Origin: Bacteroidota bacterium
GTDB lineage: Bacteria; Bacteroidota; Bacteroidia; Chitinophagales; Chitinophagaceae
Direction: 5' to 3'
Assembly: GCA_013286425.1 (NCBI GenBank)
Contig: JABDFS010000011.1
Span: 6,839 to 48,725, forward strand
DNA: 41,887 bases
A program made the translations under genes and the position numbers. Of this stretch, positions 23,193-26,332 are shown piece by piece. The stretch's first letter is position 1. Each line of letters begins with the position of its first letter. The notes beneath the pieces were generated by a model. It saw only the letters and a program-made list of their open reading frames with translations, searched no databases and was not told where the DNA came from.

Positions 23193-23564
23193 TTATTGGT
23201 TATTGTTGGGAATTTCTTCGGACACTTCTAATGTGCCGCTTGTTGAGGTTAGTGCCTGAACAGCATCTGCAAGTTCTTTCCAGGTGCGCTCCAGCTCGCC
23301 ATAAAATTGCCGGCCTGCGTCAGTCATTAAAAAATATTTACGCGGTGGCCCAGAATTACTTTCTACCCACCTGTAAGTAAGATAACCTGCATTTTTCAGC
23401 CTGGTTAATAAAGGATAAAGTGTACCTTCTAAAATATGAAGGTTTGCGCCTTTCATTTTATCAACAATATCACTCGGATAAACTTCACCTTGCTGTATAA
23501 TTGATAAAATGCAAAACTCCAGTACACCTTTTCGCATCTGGCTTTGTGTATTCTGAATATCCAT
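23193..23564 (-). CDS. PadR-family transcriptional regulator
   Basis: DNA-binding winged-helix repressor of the PadR family. The 123 residues show the characteristic core LEFCILSIIQQGEVYPSDIVDKM and LHILEGTLYPLLTRLKNAGYLTYRWVESNSGPPRKYFLMTDAG (about 14-85), followed by a C-terminal dimerisation helix. It lies directly upstream of the PspC gene and probably controls this operon. A well-formed promoter with an overlapping palindrome lies upstream. Confidence 0.93.
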   Translation of the reverse strand: MDIQNTQSQMRKGVLEFCILSIIQQGEVYPSDIVDKMKGANLHILEGTLYPLLTRLKNAGYLTYRWVESNSGPPRKYFLMTDAGRQFYGELERTWKELADAVQALTSTSGTLEVSEEIPNNNQ

Positions 23565-23592
23565 ACAAGAGTTTTTTATTTTATTTATGACA

Positions 23593-23629
23593 CAAAACTA
23601 TGTAATATTTTAATACTATGCAATGCATA
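23593..23629 (-). promoter_or_regulatory. padR-pspC promoter with overlapping 13-bp palindrome
   Basis: On the - strand, TTG (23621-23623) is spaced 20 bp from TAGTTTTG (23593-23600), fitting the Bacteroidota -33/-7 promoter. The predicted transcript starts near 23588, about 24 nt before the padR ATG. TATGCA/TGCATA arms around one A (23617-23629) overlap the -33 element and are a candidate PadR operator. Confidence 0.6.
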
Positions 23630-23826
23630 ATACCAAGTTTTTTAAGGTAACTAACTTTGTCCATTAATAGTTATTGCATTATTAGTTAAAAATCAACGAG
23701 TTAATAATAAGAGTGTCGAAGAGGATTGGGATAAGCGGTTGTATTTCTTGATGAACCGAAGCAAATATGGCAGTTGGTTTTAAGTAAGCTTAACTATACT
23801 GTTGCCTGCGCTTTCACAGCAGGTAA

Positions 23827-23881
23827 GGTCTCTATATGGTCTCTATAAGGTCTCTGTAAGGTCTCTGTAAGGTCTCTGTAA
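23827..23881 (+). repeat. Five tandem 11-bp repeats with GGTCTCT core
   Basis: Units GGTCTCTATAT, GGTCTCTATAA and three of GGTCTCTGTAA, each 11 bp, with the seven-base core unchanged in all. The period is about one helical turn, so all copies face the same side of the DNA. Confidence 0.9.
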
Positions 23882-23902
23882 TGTTACATAAGGAGTAATA
23901 AA

Positions 23903-23938
23903 ATGAAAGAAAATTTTAGCTGCGGGAGCCTGAATTGA
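23903..23938 (+). CDS. Possible 11-residue leader-type peptide ORF
   Basis: ATG 23903 opens MKENFSCGSLN and stops at TGA. A full AAGGAG (23890-23895) lies 7 nt upstream, an unusually good Shine-Dalgarno for this phylum. It starts 21 bp after the phased repeats. There is no proof of translation, and no rightward gene follows that it could lead. Confidence 0.2.
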   Translation: MKENFSCGSLN

Positions 23939-24099
23939 GTAATTGCAGTGATCTAAAGATACATGAATTTAGCTTTTTTATTAGTTTTCCAGGTAGTTTT
24001 TATAACGACAGAAATTTTAATTCTTTGGATACGCTAACTTGTTATGTTGCTATTCATTTTCAATAATTTAGGTTGAGCCATTTCCTGTGGCTTCCCTGG

Positions 24100-25245
24100 C
24101 TAATTGCCTGAGGAAAACGCCTTTATCATCCGGAAAGTCTTTTTATTGGCTTCATTATTAAGAGAGTTGGCTATTCCTTTCTTTTCTATTGCGGTCAGAT
24201 GAAAACTTAAAGAAGCCGAAGTGGCATTAGATACTGCCTCATAACTAAAAGTTGTTTTTACCAGGTTTGGCCCATACGCGCTTAGCATATAGTTTACCTG
24301 GTCTTTTTCATAATAATCCTGGAGGTTAAACCAGTTATTCTGAAGCAGGAACATTGGCTTGGTAATTAACCCCATAATAGAATTTACTTCATATGGCCTC
24401 GACCAATCTTCATTAGGCCTGTCGCGTAATTCAACAATAATAACTTTGGAAGTATTTTGTTGCAACCAGTCTTTAAAGTAAGAGATAAACCGAAGGCAGG
24501 TTTCGTGGCCGAAATTATCGCGGAAGCCACCATCCATTACATCAAATTCAGGATTTGCGGGCATTTCAACATTAGGCAGTACAAAAGGAAAGGTTGCGTT
24601 CATGCGCAATGTTGTAAGAAAGGAAAGATTTTTGGAATCCTGGTTCGCAAAAAAAGATTGAAAATCTAACCCGTCAATATCGTAATTGCTAAGATTACTT
24701 GAATTGGACTTAGCCTGCATCATGAACCTTACCGGATGAGTGGCTATAAACATCTTTCTTCCATCCCGTGTTATAGCTGTATTGAATATCATTGAAGGGA
24801 TTACAGCTTTGTGCTCGGCTAAACTGTAATCTGCGAGCCTTTTATTTAAAAGCCCTTTTGTATTTGCATTCAGCTTCTGTTCAAATGAATACCCTCTGTC
24901 ACGAATGTATGAATTACCGCTGTATTCAAACTGGCTTATGGGCCCAATCATATCTCTTGCAACAAGAGAAGAAAAGACCGGGTTTAAAAGGTCTTTGCAG
25001 ATATTATCTATATATTGTTTTTGCTGAAGCGAACTGATTTGTCCATATTCCTTTTCCAAATACAATTCCCTGAAATATGCCGCGCCAATCATTCCTCCGG
25101 AAGCGCCTGTTATCAAACCACACTGTGAAAAGAATTTGCCTTGCGTAAGTGTATCAAGTTTGGTTAAAACATTCATTGTAAAAGCGGCACTGCGATTACC
25201 ACCGCCGCTTACATCCAAAAAAAAACAACACGGGTTTTTGTTCAT
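24100..25245 (-). CDS. Patatin-like phospholipase half of a frameshifted membrane-patatin protein
   Basis: Ser-Asp dyad lipid acyl hydrolase domain. The oxyanion motif DVSGGGNRSAA starts near residue 11, the nucleophile Ser sits in ITGASGGMIGAAYFRELY (G-x-S-G-G), and the catalytic Asp is in FDVMDGGFRDNFG (D-G-G). The ATG at 25245 (MNKNPCC) is probably not the natural start. In the other frame the upstream membrane protein reads QKPVLFF directly into the T9 tract, and one T fewer joins it to LDVSGGG. The Bacteroidota family as I recall it is a single chain of about 750 residues, and the fused length here would be 743. This half might be made independently from this ATG. Confidence 0.85.
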   Translation of the reverse strand: MNKNPCCFFLDVSGGGNRSAAFTMNVLTKLDTLTQGKFFSQCGLITGASGGMIGAAYFRELYLEKEYGQISSLQQKQYIDNICKDLLNPVFSSLVARDMIGPISQFEYSGNSYIRDRGYSFEQKLNANTKGLLNKRLADYSLAEHKAVIPSMIFNTAITRDGRKMFIATHPVRFMMQAKSNSSNLSNYDIDGLDFQSFFANQDSKNLSFLTTLRMNATFPFVLPNVEMPANPEFDVMDGGFRDNFGHETCLRFISYFKDWLQQNTSKVIIVELRDRPNEDWSRPYEVNSIMGLITKPMFLLQNNWFNLQDYYEKDQVNYMLSAYGPNLVKTTFSYEAVSNATSASLSFHLTAIEKKGIANSLNNEANKKTFRMIKAFSSGN

Positions 25246-26332
25246 GCTGCCTTACTTTCCAATTATTAAGTATAGATATGAATTCCAGGCTGTCTTTTGC
25301 AACATCTGATTTATTCATAAGATCAGAAAGCGCTTCTTTATTGTATTCAGGCCTTGGTTTATTTGAAGTATAATCTAACCCGTAAGCTTTATTCCTTGGA
25401 TCAATCCAATGTTGCTGATACATCCAATTCACCAAAAGATAAATTGCCAGAACAACAGGAACACTCCAGTTACCTAAAAAAAGCGAAAGCGCTCCTGCAA
25501 CTGCAATCAGGATAGCAAAAAATAAAGTGATGCTGGCACCTGCCGGAATCTGGCAATAACGATTCTCTGTAAAAAGCCCGATCAGAACCAATGCTATCAA
25601 TGCTATAAAAACAGCTTTAACAGCAGCTACATGGTGGCGTTTAAAAATTGAATTCAAAAATTGCTGGCTGTAATGTTTTGTATTTCTTGGTTTTCTTAAT
25701 CCGAATGTTGCACTCAAAAACCAATCAATACGCATCTCTCCTTTTTCGATCTTTGAATTTTTGATCATCCGGGAAGCGCGCTCATATTTTTCTTTAGCAG
25801 TTGTAAAATCGGTCACCATCTTCCTGTAGATCTTTTTATCTGTACCGAAAAAATATCCGAAAGCAATGGCGAGTGATAAAATAAATCCTCCTAAAAAACC
25901 TCCAACCAAAGTAAGTATTTCTACTGAAGATGATAACTCTTCTACCCGTTGATAACTTATTGCGAAAAATAAATAACTCAATAAAAAAATAACCGGAATA
26001 ACCGCATTATTGATGCAATATTTTAAAAAAGGCTGAGCTGTTGTAGCGAGAAATTTTATATGCCGGCTATGTAAAATGAATGTGGTAATATTCCAACTCA
26101 TTATGTAAGCGCCAATAGCAAACCCAACAAATGCAGTGCTTGCAGCGCTTACATGCCCCAAATATTCCGGTGCAAGCATTAAAGAATCAGCACCATAAGG
26201 TTTTAAAAACTGGCCGCCGATTGTTGCAAAAAGAATGACCCAGAACAGCAGTAAAACCTGGTACCTGCGGAAATGCAGAAAAACCAGTTGCACGGGAAAT
26301 GAATAAAAGAAACCTGCTAAATATTTCTTCAT
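25196..26332 (-). CDS. N-terminal membrane half of the frameshifted membrane-patatin protein
   Basis: A hydrophobic region with about seven to eight membrane segments (VLLLFWVILFATIGGQFL; AFVGFAIGAYIMSW; IPVIFLLSYLFFAI; GGFLGGFILSLAIAFGYFFG; AVFIALIALVLIGLF; ASITLFFAILIAVAGALSLFLG; VVLAIYLLVNW), followed by a linker to EQKPVLFFF. After the T9 tract the frame continues only into GCKRRW and a stop, residues with no place in the family. The two frames overlap by 50 bp. The start ATG is 26332. The membrane region probably anchors the lipase domain at the inner membrane. Confidence 0.8.
   Translation of the reverse strand: MKKYLAGFFYSFPVQLVFLHFRRYQVLLLFWVILFATIGGQFLKPYGADSLMLAPEYLGHVSAASTAFVGFAIGAYIMSWNITTFILHSRHIKFLATTAQPFLKYCINNAVIPVIFLLSYLFFAISYQRVEELSSSVEILTLVGGFLGGFILSLAIAFGYFFGTDKKIYRKMVTDFTTAKEKYERASRMIKNSKIEKGEMRIDWFLSATFGLRKPRNTKHYSQQFLNSIFKRHHVAAVKAVFIALIALVLIGLFTENRYCQIPAGASITLFFAILIAVAGALSLFLGNWSVPVVLAIYLLVNWMYQQHWIDPRNKAYGLDYTSNKPRPEYNKEALSDLMNKSDVAKDSLEFISILNNWKVRQHEQKPVLFFFGCKRRW
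25217..25225 (-). other. T9 tract carrying the frameshift in the membrane-patatin gene
   Basis: Nine A on the + strand (nine T in the coding strand) at the exact junction. Eight T would give EQKPVLFFLDVSGGGNRS and a single open frame of 744 codons (26332 to 24100). Confidence 0.85.

Follow-up and report, generated by a model that had tools for sequence, protein, structure and literature searches.

The phased GGTCTCT array in the window (the whole stretch of 41,887 nucleotides that was analysed) is probably a solo head, standing without its gene, of a dispersed element made up of an array and a gene, and its units are candidate protein-binding sites. In its complete form the element consists of an 11-bp phased direct-repeat array in one orientation, a leader and an open reading frame (ORF) of about 230 aa, and solo heads, one internally deleted copy and decayed ORFs lie scattered in the two genomes that we studied closely. 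There is good support for the identity of the element and for its dispersal; the binding role of the units and the nature of the mover are what we infer beyond this.

The array and its site in the window

The array occupies 23827..23881 of the forward strand and is formed by five 11-bp units of the type GGTCTCT[AG]TA[AT], as established by TRF, pattern matching and comparison of the units. The GGTCTCT cores start at 23827, 23838, 23849, 23860 and 23871, a step of 11 bp, and TRF gives a period of 11, 5.3 copies and a 93% match at 23824-23881, which is the top score among the 24 rows obtained for the window. With up to two mismatches allowed, the paired pattern GGTCTCT-N4-GGTCTCT matches the window four times, every time within the array, against a mean of 0.05 and a maximum of 2 matches in the shuffled window, confirming that the five tandem units of the original prediction stand far above chance. 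Immediately to the left, degenerate 11-bp units (agtaagcttaa, ctatactgttg, cctgcgctttc and acagcaggtaa) continue the same register on the forward strand at 23783..23826 and make up the left part of the head, the last two of them resembling the equivalent units of other copies.

The sense direction of the array is rightwards and both flanking genes point leftward. The left neighbour is a syntenic PadR-family regulator (23193..23564, reverse strand) and the right one a syntenic patatin-like phospholipase (24100..25245, reverse strand). Patatin is present in all eight genomes of the genus, and the order of patatin and PadR is preserved in the seven congeners examined, all of which lack the array at this place. 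The two genes are separated by 535 bp in the window vs 246 bp in the congener G006 and 190, 214, 193, 193, 193 and 186 bp in the others, and the lag-11 score of the intervening DNA is 0.76 in the window vs 0.36-0.41 in the seven congeners. The wider spacing and the array-less congeners thus indicate that the array arrived as part of some 300 bp of inserted DNA, whose approximate extent, taken from what is missing at the syntenic site in the seven congeners and not base-exact at its ends, is 23757..24098, with no strand assigned. A search for the exact ends and the target duplication of this insertion found neither. Downstream of the array, on the forward strand, the window carries a tail (23882..24029) that is common to four further array copies of the genome, at 79-81% identity to the window copy, with 23900-24029 corresponding to G000:C11:30738-30867.

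As a side observation, the patatin gene and the ORF next to it form a single open frame of 746-753 aa in six of the seven congeners and of 685 aa in the seventh. In the window the corresponding gene is split between the overlapping frames 24100-25245 and 25196-26332 and therefore looks frameshifted, either by mutation or by assembly error.

Dispersed copies in the host genome

The assembly from which the window comes (G000) is of 3.45 Mb and 64% complete. It contains 28 exact matches to GGTCTCT-N4-GGTCTCT at 17 places, with none for the reversed pattern used as control, which disposes of the possibility, foreseen in the original prediction, that the paired pattern might have no other occurrences. 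A 24-mer search with up to three mismatches yielded 70 hits (control 0), and the host genome holds at least 20 arrays of the window kind, many of them with common flanks. Among 59 relatives the exact paired pattern was found in two, the host and G006, and within the genus both the array word and the protein described below occur in two of the eight genomes. The 26 arrays that we read comprise 20 with the window word, four with the word CTTTGGTCTCT and two from G006; L078 (C94), having no cluster of at least two hits, was dropped from the set. The places of this second word are L081-L084 (G000:C22, C61, C62 and C91).

By their flanks, the window copy groups with L069, L071, L073 and L074 (class A), and nine further copies share other flanks (class B). 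The class A consensus recovered the five known copies in G000 and none in G006, together with two matches of ~25 bp in G003. Between the nine class B copies, pairwise identity amounts to 89% in the array, 66% in the leader and 62% in the left part. At L074 an array is present in both the host and G006, with different words (GGTCTCT vs GGTTACT), which may reflect either turnover in place or two insertions.

The complete element and its protein family

At G000:C37 a class B head and leader are followed by an intact ORF of 230 aa, and decayed 5' parts of the same ORF remain at L063 and L080. The 230-aa protein has 13 matches at eight distinct places of G006, most of them broken; at L085 the interior of the ORF is missing with the 3' end retained. 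In every stretch fetched from G006, 11 bp is the strongest of lags 10-12, with words such as GGTTACTATAA and CATCCCTATAA. No remnant of the 230-aa gene was detected in the tails of the five class A copies, and the window copy is therefore linked to the gene through the common array and the left units only.

The protein has no match in Pfam at E up to 1 (G000 member) and none in NCBIfam (three members), and a search of 14 members against Pfam and PHROGs gave single-member matches alone (E 0.014-0.045); the best E against the PDB was 0.51. No DNA-binding domain was recognised in these Pfam, PHROGs, NCBIfam and PDB searches, and one structure model, with a pLDDT of 33, was useless. When the bacterial family (294 genomes, 101 genera) was searched with an HMM of the protein, 19 genomes in 14 genera gave matches, up to nine each; one named carrier is a Niastella MAG, which places this relative in the Chitinophagaceae. 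In a wider search of the phylum, 16 of 395 genomes including the host were positive, many of them with matches to the N-terminal part only. Proteins of 148-252 aa beginning MA[RK]QKG[IL][IV]KL.GT.GDITF (L185-L192) have this N-terminal part in common with the array-linked family, and three of them, when scanned against Pfam, gave no match. A peptide-pattern search of viral_contigs returned no relative of the G000 protein, and within ~1.5 kb of the array-linked genes no neighbour is common to more than two of 29 loci.

Pairing of array and gene

The 450 bp preceding each of 30 gene copies, a non-independent set drawn from 19 genomes, were analysed for periodicity, a lag-11 score of at least 0.55 being taken as an array. 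Over lags 5-30 the strongest upstream period is 11 bp in 25 copies, 22 bp in three, 21 bp in one and 10 bp in one, and the threshold is reached in 28 of the 30 upstream stretches, compared with 0/30 stretches further upstream, 1/30 downstream, 0/600 shuffles and 0/93 tiles of the window, these tiles being fixed and splitting the window array, for which a centred tile scores 0.76. The medians over the 28 loci are ~105 bp for the array and 74 bp for the leader between array and ATG. The wider search supplied 11 loci, of which L183 (identical with the gene L123), L184 and L193 score 0.55 or more and the eight distant homologues L185-L192 score less. Starting from the array instead, eight places in five other genomes, from two other genera, have the gene within ~1.5 kb in two cases, a weak gene remnant in one and no gene in five.

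The stretch between array and ATG was scored with the Bacteroidota promoter consensus motif, and no enrichment was seen (observed mean 6.79, shuffled 6.80). RNA structure was likewise sought in 28 related arrays and none was found (z -1.8 to 2.0); both analyses were carried out on the set without L120 and L135.

DUF6266 genes

DUF6266 (PF19781) resembles the 230-aa family in size, in having 10/11-bp arrays upstream and in being multicopy, with fragments, in the same genomes; it differs from it in the words and in the inverted arm that follows some of the arrays. For 16 full-length DUF6266 genes, a count that omits 13 of 29 rows as fragmentary (some with arrays and some without), the top upstream period is 11 bp in ten and 10 bp in three, and seven of the 16 reach 0.55 at lag 11. 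DUF6266 genes or fragments stand behind (TTGTTCGATAG)n or (CTTCGATATAA)n arrays at L150, L151, L154, L156, L164 and L165, and after these arrays comes an inverted arm, for example (ATCGAACAACT)n, array and arm together forming a long phased palindrome. At L147 (DUF6266, G000:C28) a complementary word similar to CTTTGGTCTCT lies upstream. Homology between the two families was considered and is unsupported, with an hhalign probability of 2% and no match of PF19781 to the 14 members of the 230-aa family (alignment A4) at E up to 0.1; among 32 sequences, a DUF6266 profile found one member of the 230-aa family at E 0.006, and the first 98 columns of the alignment between both families are colinear.

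A text search of the open-licence literature found neither DUF6266 nor the three array words. We put forward, tentatively, a broader proposal, namely that an undescribed class of Bacteroidota elements might exist in which a self-propagating gene is coupled to its own centromere-like 10/11-bp array, protein and word co-evolving, with at least two families (230-aa and DUF6266) of this build and with solo arrays scattered over host genomes as recognition platforms.

Ends and mobility

A comparison of 15 gene segments with G006 gave an orthologue for five of them and insertions at L076 and L080, L072 and L062 being uninformative. Compared with G006, L076 (G000:C70) carries 488 bp of inserted DNA, bordered by 8-bp direct repeats and ~18-bp terminal inverted repeats as read by eye; MITE-like ends TGCATTTCAAATTTT enclose this array-bearing insert. 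L075 (G000:C67) shows short matches to the L076 flanks in the opposite orientation. Copies in G006 end in TTAACGTGAG..CTCACGTTA with TAAACTA or TATTTA as candidate direct repeats, also read by eye, and at L086, L096, L098, L101 and L103 of that genome a repeat of ~210 bp with TAACGTGAG-type ends adjoins the array cassette on its left. Mobility of the element is supported by the empty sites and by the direct and terminal inverted repeats of L076. A link to RAYT/REP systems was also considered: of the five Y1_Tnp matches in the genome just one is near a listed array, namely the RAYT-like Y1_Tnp gene at L077 (G000:C93), at a distance of about 600 bp.

Alternatively, the array might serve mainly for recognition at the end of a mobile element, whose heads, with or without the gene, would be moved in a MITE-like manner by a transposase acting in trans or by the 230-aa protein. 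This reading, which we find somewhat doubtful, would account for the empty sites of the window copy and L076, for the terminal and direct repeats of L076, for the G006 ends and their candidate direct repeats, for solo heads in the host genus and two other genera and for arrays better conserved than their flanks; however, the terminal repeats are unlike between copies (TGCATTTCAAATTTT at L076, TAACGTGAG in G006), the G006 terminus is found internally too, the array is located at one end only and the element has no known transposase. The differing terminal repeats and the internal G006 terminus suggest that ordinary MITEs may only have carried the cassette, and since the copies differ in their ends, hitch-hiking inside MITEs may account for some of the spread.

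Array words, units and proposed function

The array words vary between loci (GTCGCTATAAG, CCAGTATAACT, CCCCTATAACT, CATCAGGAGAA and others), and in 17 of 27 loci they agree with GGTCTCTATAA at eight or more of the 11 positions, a level of agreement seen in 2.4% of shuffled words, and the sense orientation fits better in 25 of the 27. Word similarity tracks protein similarity (Mantel r 0.49, reached by none of 2000 permutations); L120, L124 and L135 were left out of this analysis and L093 was added. The correlation between word and protein would also follow from common descent of the cassette, but even below 35% protein identity 48 of 332 pairs agree at nine or more word positions vs 0.16% of shuffled pairs.

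If slippage had produced a neutral tandem repeat that chance duplications then spread together with its flanks, one would expect units alike inside an array and unlike between arrays, as is the case here for arrays of 3-7 units. Slipped-strand expansion, suggested originally, may homogenise the units and could explain the stronger conservation of the arrays, but it fails to explain why the same period (11 bp, or 10 in a few), place and orientation recur, along with related words, ahead of homologous genes across many genera, and it is already opposed by the controls of the pairing test; neutrality is thus very unlikely.

A comparison of 97 units, taken from 20 arrays of the host genome, shows conservation at each of the eleven positions. 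It is weakest at position 8 (66 A, 30 G) and position 1 (72 G), and at the supposed spacer positions T9 is kept in 94/97 and A10 in 97/97 units. The number of units is 4-7 in 19 of the 20 GGTCTCT arrays, with an overall range of 3-7. The unit is therefore an 11-mer and not a 7-bp box plus a free spacer: from the original description of a 7-bp core with a 4-bp spacer the period is retained and the free spacer is lost. OmpR/PhoB-type boxes are 7-bp sites arranged as direct repeats at an 11-bp period with a loose 4-bp spacer; the arrays share that period but have a conserved spacer and mostly 4-7 units. An Rfam scan of 23300-24300 produced a single match of 12.6 bits vs a gathering score of 40, and the 11-codon ORF MKENFSCGSLN (23903..23938, forward strand) possesses an AAGGAG site in one of five sister copies, differs in length among them and is probably not a gene. 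Ordinary response-regulator boxes of the OmpR/PhoB type from which a small RNA or peptide close by would be regulated, as first proposed, agree with 11-bp direct repeats on one DNA face but not with the conserved spacer, the insertion missing in congeners, the lack of an RNA family at the locus and of RNA structure in related arrays, or the unconserved ORF, and are highly improbable.

We thus favour the reading of the window array as a solo head of the element. A phase that is held while the words drift, the absence of RNA structure and a nearly fixed place and orientation fit protein-binding sites on one DNA face. Each 11-bp unit may represent the site for one protein, encoded either by the element itself or by the host, and this putative binder would load along one face of the DNA. 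Loading might then control the linked gene, mark the recognition end for copying of the element, or both. With only the head left in the window, a relic or a spare binding platform is likelier than a promoter of a neighbour. The isolated repeat thereby becomes the mark of a gene family unnamed in the libraries searched, and the phased array a sequence-level handle for finding such elements; if protein and array co-evolve, the many natural protein/array pairs, with their graded word divergence, would be a ready set of specificity variants.

Comparison with known systems

The window copy is short, gene-less and intergenic with an empty site in seven congeners, as MITEs and solo transposon ends are, and L076, empty in G006, adds terminal inverted repeats and 8-bp repeats. 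The element departs from MITEs in having a phased array as its conserved core and, in the complete form, a gene for an uncharacterised protein instead of a recognised transposase. TAACTGA repeats, also found in some Bacteroidetes, are intergenic direct repeats of undefined role (MacGregor 2015, PMC4679880); in Beggiatoaceae they are mostly right before the start codons of functionally mixed genes, and some Bacteroidetes relatives are described there as having shorter intergenic regions without them (PMC4679880). They differ from our arrays in being heptamers, and that description connects them neither with 11-bp phasing nor with a single gene family (PMC4679880).

Closer parallels are provided by plasmids. 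The bind locus of the rolling-circle plasmid pGL2 (RepB) is reported to contain 11-bp repeats (PMC3387028); it differs from the arrays in sitting beside the nick site of a plasmid origin. In parC of R1 and pB171, as described in PMC9426499, 10- or 11-bp direct repeats of system-specific sequence precede the cognate gene, ParR of R1 requiring at least two 11-bp repeats and ParR of pB171 binding 10-bp repeats. The gene-linked relatives of the window array likewise carry 10-11-bp direct repeats upstream of a gene, the window copy itself being without one. Unlike in ParMRC, the array-linked protein has no Pfam family and copies of the array lie scattered over the genome; no adjacent parM with a ribbon-helix-helix parR was seen, as judged by the Pfam searches of the protein and by shared neighbours. 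By analogy, the repeats of parC (R1 and pB171) and of bind may be considered mechanical parallels to the arrays.
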